In this document: piece after piece, positions 1,277-8,060 of the stretch
Numbering within the stretch: the first letter of the stretch is position 1
Layout of the letters: every line of letters starts with the position of its first letter
NCBI GenBank assembly: GCA_030655715.1
Contig: JAUSPR010000278.1
Span: forward strand, 1 to 10,911
From: Thermoplasmata archaeon
Lineage (GTDB): Archaea > Thermoplasmatota > Thermoplasmata > SG8-5
DNA length: 10,911 bases
Direction of reading: 5' to 3'
Position numbers and translations under genes: made by a program
Notes under the pieces: model-generated
Databases searched by the model: none
What the model saw: the letters and a program-made list of their open reading frames with translations, nothing else
What the model was told of the DNA's origin: nothing

Positions 1277-1340
1277 AAAGAGCCAGCATCGCGGCCTCTC
1301 AGTAAACTACCAGCCCCTAAAGTGGCTCTTTATTATTTTT
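1277..1340 (+). terminator. Long-loop inverted repeat plus T-rich tract
   Basis: A perfect 9-bp inverted repeat (1277-1285 AAAGAGCCA with 1323-1331 TGGCTCTTT) is followed by TATTATTTTT at 1331-1340. It lies 30 nt after the zinc-ribbon gene and could end its transcript. Its right arm overlaps the outer hairpin of structured repeat copy 1, so the two structures compete. A shorter T-run at 1253-1260 is an alternative termination site. Confidence 0.4.
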
Positions 1341-1415
1341 GAAGCCACATACCCTACCCTCACAGGCAGGGCTTGGATTGAGATTCGAATCGCAAATGCT
1401 TTGTCACTTAGCCTC

Positions 1416-1476
1416 GTTCCAAATGCCCTTTTGCTGCTCGTAGTTCCAAATCCCAAAACACCCCCTCGTTCCAAAT
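1416..1476. repeat. Degenerate tandem repeat, about 26-bp period
   Basis: GTTCCAAAT occurs at 1416-1424, 1443-1451 and 1468-1476, each preceded by CTCG or CTCGTA. The outer two copies share a 14-base word (1412-1425 and 1464-1477). It lies inside the DNA that splits structured repeat copy 1. Confidence 0.55.
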
Positions 1477-1487
1477 GTCCGCAGACT

Positions 1488-1538
1488 TTGGAAACCGAAT
1501 AAATTTGGATGCCATATAAAATTGGATGCCGATAAAAA
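1488..1538. repeat. Three tandem copies of a 17-bp unit
   Basis: The units are 1488-1504, 1505-1521 and 1522-1538. Each starts TTGGAxxCC and ends in an A-rich half. The second and third share TTGGATGCC exactly, while the first reads TTGGAAACC. It is inside the extra DNA of structured repeat copy 1. Function unknown. Confidence 0.6.
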
Positions 1539-1782
1539 CAGGCGGGCATGTTGCTGGGAATACATCCAGATTCCACATTGAGATTGCTGGAACTTCAGTG
1601 CCTAACATTTGTTACCAGGGCTGAAAGTTTGCCAAGCACCTGATTTATCAAAGCTGATGGCTTTGATTTTATTTGCAATAATCTGAACGGTGCTTGGCGG
1701 CATTTCCTTGCCATATCCGTGTCCTCGGTCAATTCATTTCAGGCGTTCACGCCTGATGCTTTCTTGACCGCTTGACACTAAA

Positions 1783-3119
1783 TTACTCCATCAAATCTTT
1801 GACAGCTTTCATTCCCTCGTCTGAAAGCTCCTTGGCCCTGGCAGGGTGCGGCGAATCAACATAAATTCTTACAAGTGGCTCGGTTCCCGATGACCTAATC
1901 AGAAGCCAGCTTCCATCCTCGAATATATATTTCAAACCGTCAATGTCATTGAGACTGGCTCCGGCAGGATGAAAGTTTTCCTTCACCCGGGCCAGGAGGT
2001 CTTTGACCTGTTCTACCGTGCCTTTGACATTTCTCTTTATCTGCACGTGCCTTGGAAATTCCATAACAATACTGGAGAGTTTTTTCTTGGTCGTGGAAAG
2101 GACCCTGGCCATCATTGCAGTGGCGATAATCCCGTCAGCCCACATTACCTCGGGCGGGAAGAAGTATTTTCCTGACTCTTCATAGGCAAAGACAGCATTG
2201 TTCTGTTGTGCGGCCAGTGTTATTTCGGGCGGGCCGATAACGCATTCTACAACTTCACCTTTCCAGACCTTCTTCATCAGACCGGAGGAATTCACTGGAG
2301 TAACAACAGTTCCCGGGCCACCGGAATAAATGTATTTGGCAAAAATCACCGCGGCCATGTCCTCAGAGACTGGTTTACCGGTCTCATCCACGAAAAGCAC
2401 GCGGTCGCAATCAGAATCATACGCTGCCCCGAAATTGGCATTGTTATCAAGTACCAGCTCGGAAAGTTCTCCCACGCAGTCCGCCCGGGGTTCCATCTTT
2501 CTGGGAGCGAAATCAAATCTTGAGTGATCAAGTCATGTACATTGCACCCCAGATCGTTCATGAGCCTGGGTATGAACTCTGCGCCTGTGGCACCGGCAGT
2601 GTCCAGGGCCAATTTTATGCCCTTTCCGGGTAACTGGCTACCGCAGATATGCTGGATGAATTCCAGATAATCATAAGTGAAATTCTCCTCAACTGGCAGT
2701 TGCCCGTGAATGTGGGCCGGGGCAATAATTTCCTTGGCCAGGAGAGCAATCTTTTCAGTTTCCAACTTCGGAGGTATGGCGCCAACACTGTCCAGGGGGA
2801 TAAGTCCAATCCTGTCATAGGGAAGATGCGAGCCAGTTACCATGAGACCGCCGTCATATTTTTTCTTGTAAATCATGGCGCAGACCAGGGGCGAGGGCGC
2901 GACACCCAGATTGACTACGGTTACGCCCGTGGATTCCATTGCTGCCGCGCAAATACCAGCAAGTCTGTCCGCACCGGGTCTGGTGTCATATCCAAGGCAT
3001 AGCGTTTTTGACTCTCCAAAATACTTTCCCAGTGCAACTCCAACTTGCCAGCACAGTTCCTCTGTAATCTCGGCATCGGTGAGCCCACGAAGTCCTGCTG
3101 TCCCGAACTCAATCTCCAA
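1783..3119 (-). CDS. Phosphohexomutase-family enzyme (phosphomannomutase / possible phosphopentomutase), frameshifted
   Basis: This alpha-D-phosphohexomutase enzyme moves a phosphate within a sugar phosphate and is cytoplasmic. In order it shows the N-terminal IEFGTAGLRG segment, the phosphoserine loop TGSHLPYDR, the metal loop DSDCDR (DxDxDR), the sugar loop EESGKYFF and the C-terminal phosphate loop RSSGTEP. All four functional loops are present but in two frames: the first half runs from 3119 to about 2510, the second from about 2510 to 1783. Adding one base near 2505-2515 (GATTTGATTTC context) restores one protein of about 445 aa, normal for the family. I chose the TTG at 3119 because GGAGG lies 9 nt upstream (3129-3133) and it gives a standard N-terminus; a longer ATG start at 3161 would overlap deoC. 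Being last in an operon with dGTPase and deoC, it may be a phosphopentomutase, as shown for a PMM-family enzyme of Thermococcus, but substrate cannot be read from sequence. The frameshift may be an assembly error. Confidence 0.85.
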
Positions 3120-3120
3120 G

Positions 3121-3774
3121 CTACTTTGCCTCCACAATTGCGATCCCGGCACTTGTGCCAATGCGATTGGCTCCAGCCTTAATCATGACAAGGGCATCAT
3201 CACGATTCCTGATTCCACCGGATGCCTTGACGCCGATATCTGGACCGACAGTCTGGCGCATTAATTTTACAGCTTCCACGGTAGCTCCGCTGGTTCCGAA
3301 TCCAGTGGAGGTTTTCACGAATTGCGCACCGGCTTCTTTGGATAACTGGCATGCCTTGATAATTTGTTCTTCATTGAGATAGCAAAATTCAATAATGACC
3401 TTGACAAGCCTTCCATTAGCTGCTGCCACGACTGATTGAATGTCATCTCTGACAAAGTCATAATCCCCATCAAGCAATTTTCCAATATTCATTACCAGGT
3501 CCAGCTCATCTGCACCGTCCTCAACGGCGATTTTTGCCTCAAGGGTTTTCGCCTGTGAGGCCGCATTCCCAAGGGGAAATCCGATCACCGCGCAGACCTT
3601 GACCGGGGAACCCATAACCAATGACCTGCATAGCTCAACCCAGGTTGGAGCCACACAGACAGAGGCAAAATTGTATTGCCTGGCTTCAGCGCAGAGTTTT
3701 TCAATCTGGGCAGAGGTGGCATTGGCCTTCAGAAGCGTGTGGTCAATCATTCCTGCAATTTTATTATCTATCAT
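3121..3774 (-). CDS. deoC: Deoxyribose-phosphate aldolase
   Basis: DeoC splits 2-deoxyribose-5-phosphate into acetaldehyde and glyceraldehyde-3-phosphate, the last step of deoxynucleoside catabolism. The 217-aa class I aldolase (TIM barrel) has the Schiff-base lysine K154 in FVKTSTGFG, the second active-site lysine K183 in GVKASGGIR, and the acidic residue D92 in DELDLVMNIG. The length is typical of the family. Its ATG overlaps the dGTPase stop codon by four bases (ATGA), and GAGG lies 8 nt before the ATG, so translation is probably coupled. The phosphohexomutase follows at once, its SD sitting inside the deoC 3' end. The placement suits use of deoxyribose phosphate released from deoxynucleosides. 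Confidence 0.95.
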   Translation of the reverse strand: MIDNKIAGMIDHTLLKANATSAQIEKLCAEARQYNFASVCVAPTWVELCRSLVMGSPVKVCAVIGFPLGNAASQAKTLEAKIAVEDGADELDLVMNIGKLLDGDYDFVRDDIQSVVAAANGRLVKVIIEFCYLNEEQIIKACQLSKEAGAQFVKTSTGFGTSGATVEAVKLMRQTVGPDIGVKASGGIRNRDDALVMIKAGANRIGTSAGIAIVEAK

Positions 3775-6676: not shown

Positions 6677-6879
6677 TGCCTGCGTCCGGTGATAGACCCA
6701 TGGAGACAAGAATGAGAAAAAGAACCAAGAAAAACCATGTAAAAAAGTATTCTTATAGCCGAATTGCAGGCAATTATCTGAGAATATTTTCACTACCTGG
6801 CAAATTATTATTACTTTTAATTATAATTGTATTATTATTAATTATGTCAGTTATATTTATCAAGGTGATTTTCCCGTGA
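6676..6879 (+). CDS. Small basic single-pass membrane protein (67 aa)
   Basis: I do not recognise this gene. The product has a strongly basic N-terminal half (RMRKRTKKNHVKK, residues about 12-24) followed by one leucine/isoleucine-rich membrane helix at about 43-65 and a short tail. The charge pattern predicts the basic half in the cytoplasm. It is likely to be translated: GAGGG (6663-6667) lies 8 nt before the ATG, the ATG overlaps the dus stop by one base, and its stop overlaps the arsC start (GTGA). In-frame ATGs at 6700 and 6712 are alternative starts. Base composition turns A/T-rich in the helix, as usual for Leu/Ile/Phe codons. It could bring a partner to the membrane; no function can be named. 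Confidence 0.65.
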   Translation: MPASGDRPMETRMRKRTKKNHVKKYSYSRIAGNYLRIFSLPGKLLLLLIIIVLLLIMSVIFIKVIFP

Positions 6880-7289
6880 AGGTACTGTTTCTCTGCGTTG
6901 GAAATTCCTGCCGGAGCCAGATGGCAGAAGGTTTTCTCCTGCATATTGGAGATGGGGGAATAGAAGTCACCAGCGCTGGAACGAAACCAGCCAACAAAGT
7001 ATCATCCCTGGCAATCGAGGTAATGAAAGAAAAAGGCATAGATATTTCAAGCCAGCACCCGAAAGCCCTGACCGATGAAATGGTGGAGCAGGCAGACATT
7101 CTCATCTCCATGGGATGCGGCGTGGAAAAATCTTGTCCAGCCATATACCTGAACAAGTTCGAGGACTGGCATGTCGAAGACCCCTATGGCGGGACTATTG
7201 ATCAGTATCGTATTGCTCGGGATAGGATAGAAACAAAGGTAAAGGAACTCATTCAGCACATCTTGTTTTCTAAAGAGCTTGGCCATTGA
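6876..7289 (+). CDS. arsC: Arsenate reductase, low-molecular-weight phosphatase type
   Basis: The 137-aa protein has the P-loop C-x5-R as C7-VGNSC-R13 and the aspartate of the DP motif at 102-103 (HVEDPYG), which define the low-molecular-weight tyrosine phosphatase fold. Two further cysteines, C81 and C87 (MGCGVEKSC), sit where thioredoxin-coupled arsenate reductases carry their redox pair, so reduction of arsenate to arsenite is more likely than tyrosine dephosphorylation. The start is GTG at 6876, preceded by GGTGA (6864-6868) and overlapping the small membrane gene's stop. It ends the guaD-dus operon. No arsR or arsenite exporter is in the window. Its 3' part is partly duplicated at 7545-7652. 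Confidence 0.87.
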   Translation: MKVLFLCVGNSCRSQMAEGFLLHIGDGGIEVTSAGTKPANKVSSLAIEVMKEKGIDISSQHPKALTDEMVEQADILISMGCGVEKSCPAIYLNKFEDWHVEDPYGGTIDQYRIARDRIETKVKELIQHILFSKELGH

Positions 7290-7544: not shown

Positions 7545-7652
7545 GAGGACCGGCATGTCGAAGACCCCTATGACGAAAATATCGCAGACTACCGGATGGC
7601 ACGAGACGAGATAGAGAGGAAGGTCAGTGCGCTATTGTCAAAAATCCATTGA
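7533..7652 (+). pseudogene. C-terminal fragment of a second arsC
   Basis: From residue 5 this 39-codon open frame matches the last third of the ArsC upstream: EDRHVEDPYDENIADYRMAR compared with EDWHVEDPYGGTIDQYRIAR, ending SALLSKIH. At DNA level 27 of 28 bases match (7161-7188 compared with 7545-7572), then identity falls sharply. The P-loop and redox cysteines are absent, so it cannot be an active enzyme. It looks like the remnant of a tandem paralogue whose 5' part was lost or replaced by the stem-loop array; H4 of that array overlaps its 5' edge. The ATG at 7533 is probably accidental. Confidence 0.75.
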
Positions 7653-7749: not shown

Positions 7750-7832
7750 GCGAGGATAGCCCAGCCTGGTAAGGCGCAGGATTGCTAATCCTGTGCTCTT
7801 TGAGCTCGGGGGTTCGAATCCCCCTCCTCGCG
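7750..7832 (+). tRNA. tRNA-Ser (anticodon GCT)
   Basis: The acceptor stem pairs GCGAGGA (7750-7756) with TCCTCGC (7825-7831), with discriminator G at 7832. The anticodon stem CAGGA/TCCTG (7777-7781, 7789-7793) encloses loop TTGCTAA, giving GCT at 7784-7786, which reads AGC/AGU serine codons. A long variable arm (about 7794-7807) and the T-arm GGGGG-TTCGAAT-CCCCC (7808-7824) complete a class II tRNA. CCA is not encoded and no intron is seen. A T-rich stretch at 7834-7850 follows and may end transcription. Confidence 0.96.
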
Positions 7833-7833
7833 C

Positions 7834-7850
7834 TTTATTTTTATATATTT
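7834..7850 (+). terminator. T-rich tract after tRNA-Ser
   Basis: TTTATTTTTATATATTT directly follows the tRNA and fits archaeal oligo-T termination. It also contains TTTATATA (7840-7847), a good TATA box sequence, but start sites predicted from it would fall inside stem A of structured repeat copy 2. Confidence 0.45.
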
Positions 7851-8060
7851 AGTGTCAAGCGGTCAAGAACCCTCTGGCCTTCAGGCCCGAGATAAATTGA
7901 CCGAGGACATGGATATAGCAAAAATGCCGCCATGTACCGTGCATATTCAAATAAATGAAATCAAAGCGGATGGGGTTTGATAAATCAGGTACATGGCCTA
8001 TACATCTATACTTCCAGCCCTGGCAACAAACGTCAGCCACTTTAGGAGCTGGTAGTTTAC
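7847..8060 (+). repeat. Structured repeat, copy 2 (uninterrupted)
   Basis: This 214-bp element matches copy 1 (1302-1783, opposite strand). Stem A: GTGTC 7852-7856 with GACAT 7906-7910, and CGGTCAA 7860-7866 with TTGACCG 7897-7903. Hairpin B: 7872-7879 with 7884-7891, one mismatch, loop TTCA. Stem C: GCCATGTACC 7929-7938 with GGTACATGGC 7988-7997. Hairpin D inside C: ATCAAA 7960-7965 with TTTGAT 7976-7981. The conserved linear block is 8015-8033, then hairpin E (8034-8051) and the 3' end GGTAGTTTAC (8051-8060). Stem C matches copy 1's stem only through compensatory changes. It lies 14 nt after tRNA-Ser and 40 nt before pdaD, on the same strand as both. The 3' hairpin with CTTTAG followed by GGTAGTTTAC resembles right ends of IS200/IS605-type elements as I remember them. 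No transposase or TnpB is encoded here. Confidence 0.78.

Follow-up and report, generated by a model that had tools for sequence, protein, structure and literature searches.

A dispersed structured repeat in an order of Thermoplasmata is very probably a PATE-like element of the IS200/IS605 family, with guide-like covariation between element and host target

A structured sequence in two inverted copies lies within contig C159 (10,911 bp) of a 1.73-Mb MAG that comprises 287 contigs and is 72.7 % complete; this whole contig is referred to here as the window. An earlier note had claimed that the stems of the two copies are kept by compensatory changes and had recognised no family for them, which raises the question of what the sequence is and why its fold has been kept. 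Both copies, 7847-8060 (+) and 1302-1783 (-), were borne out at the positions named, and a repeat search connected them by six inverted-repeat blocks of 22–54 nt with 78–100 % complementarity. The pairing was as described, with stem C arms of GCCAAGCACC/GGTGCTTGGC in 1302-1783 and GCCATGTACC/GGTACATGGC in 7847-8060, 5 + 7 pairs and a single G-C to G-T change in stem A, and arms of hairpin B that differ between the copies. The count and the extents required correction. Across the genome the copies number far more than two, with at least 149 matches, some of them partial; the copy at 1302-1783 is present but is split by 269 bp at 1328-1596; and the element does lie in 7847-8060, but the boundaries of sibling copies show that TTTAG at 7848-7852 is host target sequence outside the element. 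The features are as follows.

7848..7852, + strand: TTTAG, the host pentamer used as target, on the left side of the insertion (from the flank counts of 69 copies)
7853..8060, + strand: complete copy of the probably non-autonomous element, 208 bp (boundaries from the empty sites of sibling copies)
7860..7903, + strand: left-end hairpin HP_L, with stem A (CGGTCAA 7860-7866 / TTGACCG 7897-7903) and hairpin B inside it
7906..7914, + strand: candidate left guide, 3' of HP_L, with base 7910 opposite the last target base, 7852
7929..7997, + strand: central domain, with stem C (GCCATGTACC 7929-7938 / GGTACATGGC 7988-7997) enclosing hairpin D (7960-7981)
8032..8060, + strand: right end, with HP_R (approximately 8032-8052) and the terminal motif TTTAC (8056-8060)
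1302..1777, - strand: second copy, with the host target TTTAG at 1778-1782 on the minus strand
1328..1596, - strand: 269-bp stretch that separates element positions 195 and 189 of the second copy

The element is approximately 200–260 bp long, with 76 full-length matches of 197–266 nt, and has no recognisable gene of its own; three ORFs of 66–89 aa in the window copies matched no Pfam family at E values up to 0.1. Palindromes (HP_L and HP_R) lie near both termini. Terminal inverted repeats were absent from the window copy when its left end (TGTCAAGC..) was compared by eye with the reverse complement of its right end (GTAAACTACC..). The terminal TTTAC is presumed to be the right cleavage site.

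The 269-bp stretch in the second copy is accompanied by a 7-nt near-repeat (AGGCACT/AGCCACT), and parts of it had 51 matches in the same genome. A near-complete relative with 88 % identity was found in contig C182, while contigs C175 and C173 carry the stretch without insert part 76-168, the part that overlaps a second dispersed repeat. Because these relatives of the insert exist, 1302-1783 is read as having a variant right end, with a fragment of a second repeat family inside it, and a few other copies share this variant. The second repeat itself is centred around CATTTGGAACGAGG, at insert positions of approximately 76-187 of 1328-1596, and has dozens of partial matches in the genome. Other parts of the window were also annotated. 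The low-molecular-weight phosphatase gene at 6876-7289 (PF01451) has an 80-bp piece (7161-7240) that recurs upstream of the tRNA gene, at 7545-7624, with 74 % identity; the repeat is apparently a decayed duplicate of the 3' part of the gene. A phosphoglucomutase/phosphomannomutase-like gene at 1783-3161 (-) is split over two overlapping reading frames, with domain I in 2346-3161, domains III and IV in 1783-2496 and domain II in pieces in both, which is due either to a frameshift or to an error of assembly.

A DNA search of the genome gave 48 matches to the element. The covariance-model search that the earlier note had proposed was then based on 32 diverse copies (model R1, 138 positions and 27 pairs) and gave at least 149 matches at E≤0.001, the weaker ones being partial; this number is a lower bound, with 150 of 972 first-look candidates scored. 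At 149 matches, some partial, to a 138-position model in 1.73 Mb, the element makes up approximately 1 % of the genome. In a survey of 200 genomes of the class, with stricter filters and E≤1e-5, matches were present in 12 of the 13 genomes of the order of the window (9/9 of its own family, 3/3 of family f3 and 0/1 of family f2) and in 0 of the 187 other genomes of the class. An exact search of the GTDB collection with the last 20 bases of the element gave at least 98 stretches. Among the 80 loci listed, all were in archaeal MAGs, with titles naming Methanomassiliicoccales, Thermoplasmata, Thermoplasmatota or Euryarchaeota S2_100. A phage or viral origin was considered and rejected, as there was no match in the phage collection and the right-end 20-mer was found in 0 viral contigs.

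The boundaries of the element were defined from flanks and empty sites. After removal of 7 of the 76 full-length copies at ≥93 % identity, 69 copies remained, in which the first three of the five left-flank bases were T in 58, 65 and 64 copies, respectively, and the fourth was A in 68; the fifth was G (43), C (15), T (8) or A (3), with little base preference farther out. The right end was TTTAC in 72 of the 76 full-length copies, a conservation that comes partly from sampling since 21 of the 69 copies had been fetched by an exact right-end match. The two flanks were joined and searched for 64 copies, the other five having flanks that were too short, and a match across the junction was found for 22 of 64, at least six of which were trivial matches to the copy's own ends. 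Clean empty sites were obtained for L156 against L160, L115 and L144 (95–97 %, with 97 % for L160) and for L088 against L093 (97 %). The match of L152 to L156 was less exact, and the junctions of L093 and L163 align with gaps of 1 nt and 7 nt, respectively, beside the junction. Copies nested within other copies were found at L002, L013, L030 and L045, with the insertion in the HP_L loop for the last three, and at L104 and L124 a copy lies directly behind the right end of another.

The clean empty sites together with the nested copies L002 and L013 show no duplication and place the cut immediately behind TTTAG, GTTAG or TTTAC. The cut thus follows TTTAN, and in the clean cases no bases were duplicated or lost; a fixed short target, TTTA[GCTA], stays at the left flank and the insertion lies 3' of it. 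Many copies hold TTTAG in their own hairpin loops and TTTAC at their end, and nested and tandem clusters, for example on contig C116, therefore arise. At L077 (3856-3918), the left part of the element runs directly into right-end sequence, which resembles the terminal-only PATEs of Haloquadratum, and L045 seems to be inserted into a remnant of this kind.

Transposases were sought in the same genomes. The Y1 transposase family PF01797 was detected in five of nine family genomes. None was found in the genome of the window (72.7 % complete), a point against the assignment that leaves mobilisation in trans there presumptive. Two loci, L064 (genome G007) and L063 (genome G002), gave PF01797 scores of 100.2 and 100.1 bits and carry tnpA, on the + strand of the element, within elements of 706 and 707 bp that start after TTTAG and end in TTTAC. 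Their ends match those of the small element over approximately 50 nt on the left and 34 nt on the right (E values of 7.7e-10 to 2e-9), the right-end match being the last ~34 nt of the family profile. The two proteins are 85 % identical. NCBIfam NF033573 identifies that of L064 as an IS200/IS605 transposase (106.6 bits against a cut-off of 55), and the ISHp608 transposase (2a6m) is among the solved relatives. At L108, the C-terminus of a TnpA is followed by the same right end. Since tnpA of L064 and L063 sits between the same left and right ends, the small element is assigned to the IS200/IS605 family as a PATE-like relative.

The 706–707-bp elements had no sequence match to the central domain in the profile search, and by eye no recognisable 3' guide; L064 carries CTAAA 5' of its left hairpin, as in IS608. 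Another eight distinct Y1 loci in the order, with ~30–33 % identity to L064, were rejected as partners, as the profile found no such ends around their tnpA at E values up to 0.5. An ordinary copy of the element lies ~700 bp downstream of a TnpA match at L068. A further IS200-type transposase (L067/L176, G002:C33), ~30 % identical to that of L064, has an internal stop codon and is without these ends.

The fold was compared with dinucleotide shuffles. Folding of 7847-8060 gave z=-4.70 as DNA and z=-3.55 as RNA, and folding of 1597-1783 gave z=-5.21 as RNA, with 0 of 200 shuffles folding as well in each of the three tests. An alignment of the central domain and right end (A1) retained 32 copies, the other 37 of 69 having been dropped for containing N, exceeding 165 nt or being ≥85 % identical. 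In these 32 copies, 98.1 % of pair cells held standard pairs (shuffled mean 92.1 %), and sliding the partners by 1–3 columns lowered pairing to 25.4–41.2 %. Changes on both sides were detected for 14 of 27 pairs, against a shuffled mean of 8.2 and with 0 of 500 shuffles as high. Stem C alone was paired in 99.4 % of cells, with eight of its ten pairs doubly changed. These figures support the earlier note, which had preferred selection for a folded RNA or single-stranded DNA over plain repetition as the explanation of the differences between the copies. Stems broken at random among further copies, which that note had named as the case against it, were not seen in these alignments. Summed over stem A, outer stem A, hairpin B, stem C and hairpin D, non-Watson–Crick cells comprised 107 G-T/T-G and 17 A-C/C-A; the excess of G-T indicates that the + strand is likely the folded one.

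In a covariation scan of 69 copies, the top-ranking column pairs included some from stem A, hairpin B, stem C and hairpin D. Strong non-structural pairs such as 6-24 and 14-64 were also obtained, so the scan by itself is no proof of a fold; these pairs probably reflect subfamily history. On the tree, nine stem pairs changed at least four times on each side, and for seven of these the share of joint branches exceeded the 99th percentile (0.54) of 6,889 background pairs, while stem A pairs 14-55 (0.40) and 16-53 (0.33) stayed under the 95th percentile as well (0.43). Selection on the fold maintains the central domain, which probably serves within the transposition complex or leaves the guide free to pair. 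A three-way junction in the central domain is not claimed, as the alignment backs stem C and hairpin D and not a second small hairpin. In single-sequence and consensus folds, the central domain and the tnpA leader both have a closing stem around two hairpins in the same place; descent of the domain from such a leader was considered but homology is not claimed, as the profile gave no sequence match.

Compensatory change of this kind might equally be expected of an RNA, and a dispersed family of functional RNA genes or cis-regulatory RNAs, spread by chance and selected as transcripts, would account for the covarying stems, for a + strand that tolerates G-T/G-U far more than A-C, and for a conserved central domain, a need for which is not described in the available text of the IS608 accounts. 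The copy at 7853-8060 also begins 20 positions past the end of a tRNA gene, tRNA-Ser(gct) at 7750-7833. This explanation is nevertheless considered improbable. No Rfam family was found on the element at E values up to 1, and in the whole window Rfam gave the tRNA plus one sub-gathering match on the tRNA complement and nothing else. Insertion after TTTAN, empty sites, self-nesting and ends shared with tnpA-bearing insertion sequences are properties of a transposon, and covariation of a base in the host flank with a base in the element is not expected of a transcript. Single-stranded DNA is favoured over free RNA because the element is of the IS200/IS605 type.

Two further explanations were weighed. 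Template switching can copy one arm of a palindrome onto the other and so mimic compensatory change, and a family of double-stranded DNA palindromes, either protein-binding sites or REP-like sequences, could have kept its arms alike in this way and not by selection. Arm copying or a strand-symmetric site would not be expected to give the excess of G-T over A-C (107 vs 17), the L064 TnpA reached 29.6 bits with the model of REP-associated transposases, whose cut-off is 80, and full-length matches of 197–266 nt contrast with the 20–40 bp given for REPs in the available text of PMC3733652; palindromes of this sort are accordingly regarded as very unlikely. Even less credence is given to an RNA-guided element, in which the 3' part would be the omega RNA of a TnpB or IscB nuclease. 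An omega RNA ends at the right end of its element. IS200/IS605 elements also often carry tnpB (PMC8612924). In the nine family genomes, however, PF07282 was above its cut-off in none, with a single sub-threshold match in G007, and the 706–707-bp autonomous copies hold tnpA and no tnpB.

The flanks contain a further regularity. Flank base -1 and alignment column 63, which lies 3' of the left hairpin, formed a Watson–Crick pair in 62 of 69 copies (GC 39, CG 14, TA 7, AT 2; the remainder comprised two GT and five mismatches). In the window copy, guide base 7910 and target base 7852 form a G-T pair. On the tree, five branches changed both positions, against totals of 9 and 11 branches with a change in each of the two. 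This fraction of shared branches was matched by 65 of 6,889 background column pairs, which places the pair in approximately the top 1 % but does not make it unique. Copy L102 combines TTTAG with a complementary CACTAA within a TTTAC-type background, a state reached in two steps on the tree. In TTTAG-type copies the next position has A opposite G, which is not a Watson–Crick pair.

An alignment-free test of the guide was also used, since columns of a forced alignment slip in divergent copies. In the discovery set, 31 of 69 copies were scoreable (38 were not) and 27 of the 31 were Watson–Crick (permutation mean 8.9, uncorrected for relatedness). The test was applied to 40 fetched loci, some from genomes already used in the discovery set; 11 had no recognised left end, one was left out and 10 of the remaining 28 had no unique guide base. 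Watson–Crick pairing was found in 13 of these 18 loci (permutation mean 5.9). L220 appears to be the same copy as L089, and 12 of 17 were Watson–Crick without it; L222/L117 and L226/L096 are likewise apparent duplicates that were not scoreable. For family f3 alone, 8 of 13 scoreable copies followed the rule (permutation mean 3.9, P=0.014), with 8/9 in genomes G011 and G012 combined and 0/4 in G010. This second family bears the pairing out only partly. The G010 copies (L187-L194) retain the central domain and right end while their four scoreable members break the rule, and this genome may have a different guide position or target rule. Copy L202, whose flank reads GTGAG where others have TTTAG, carries CACTCAC within the left end and is not scoreable by the rule.

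This covariation, as read from aligned and unaligned copies, suggests natural retargeting by a DNA guide. The fuller proposal is that the base at the cut site is read by a Watson–Crick DNA guide that lies 3' of the left hairpin, on the other side from the guide of IS608, that lineages have been re-aimed repeatedly (to TTTAG, TTTAC, TTTAT, TTTAA and perhaps, in L202, GTGAG) by matching changes in the guide, and that the covarying central domain, which has no counterpart in the available accounts of IS ends, is part of the single-strand machine; the chances for and against this proposal are judged to be about even.

Taken as a whole, what had been an unrecognised structured repeat is now identified as an order-wide archaeal mobile element. 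It is, with high confidence, a non-autonomous, PATE-like member of the IS200/IS605 family that is presumably moved in trans by a Y1/HUH TnpA and whose top strand folds as single-stranded DNA. The boundaries, the target motif, the absence of target duplication and the ends shared with tnpA-bearing insertion sequences form the basis of this assignment, together with the compensatory stem changes and the top-strand bias of non-Watson–Crick pairs, and the folds are best read as recognition structures in top-strand single-stranded DNA. By analogy with IS608 and ISDra2, from which the single-strand circle, the action in trans and a guide that reads the target are taken, and beyond the definition of boundary and target, we infer the following course. 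The top strand would fold into the left hairpin, the central domain and the right hairpin as single-stranded DNA, and TnpA would bind the hairpins, cutting after the target on the left and after the terminal TTTAC on the right. The excised element would be joined into a single-stranded circle and inserted after a new TTTAN site, the last target base most likely being read by pairing with the base 3' of the left hairpin.

Several known systems share parts of this organisation. REP/REPIN sequences with their RAYT (TnpA-REP) are also high-copy hairpins, perhaps spread by a Y1 enzyme in trans, but the element differs from them in its unit size, its fixed ends and its TTTAN target, and the L064 TnpA fits the IS200 model. 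Among the literature, surveyed by title and mostly without subscription papers, none was found on the element or on natural guide-target covariation in IS200/IS605 derivatives.

The closest likeness is to the PATEs of Haloquadratum walsbyi. These are defined in PMC3119063 (Table 4), as far as the available text goes, by palindromes near the termini, no target duplication, no terminal inverted repeats, a length too short for a transposase and IS605-type ends, and all five properties were found in the element. High copy number and mutual insertion are also common to both. The element belongs to another archaeal lineage, however, and is likened to PATEs by description and not by sequence. Two traits make this order-wide, PATE-like element unusual: its central domain is kept by compensatory changes, and a base near its left end covaries, in the manner of a guide, with the host target. 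The available text of PMC3119063 mentions neither such a domain nor target switching with a matching change at the left end.

With IS608 and ISDra2, as described in the available text of PMC5934647 and PMC6006769, the element shares subterminal hairpins on the top strand, a target 5' of the left end and the lack of duplication. The TnpA of its relatives matches the ISHp608 enzyme, and a guide carried by the transposon, which reads the target in those systems, is proposed for the element from covariation; the element differs in having neither tnpA nor tnpB itself. The TnpA of IS608 binds top-strand hairpins (PMC5934647, in part), and the IS608 guide precedes the foot of the hairpin on its 5' side, while two bases on the 3' side of the hairpin take part through triplets (PMC5934647 and PMC6006769, in part). 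The covarying base of the element lies 3' of the left hairpin and would represent a variation on this placement. IS608 has been retargeted in engineering by changing the guide (PMC5934647, which cites Guynet 2009, in the available text), and the natural target switches with matching guide changes indicate that evolution seems to have done the same. If this is true, the rules of DNA-guided target choice could be tested from sequence.
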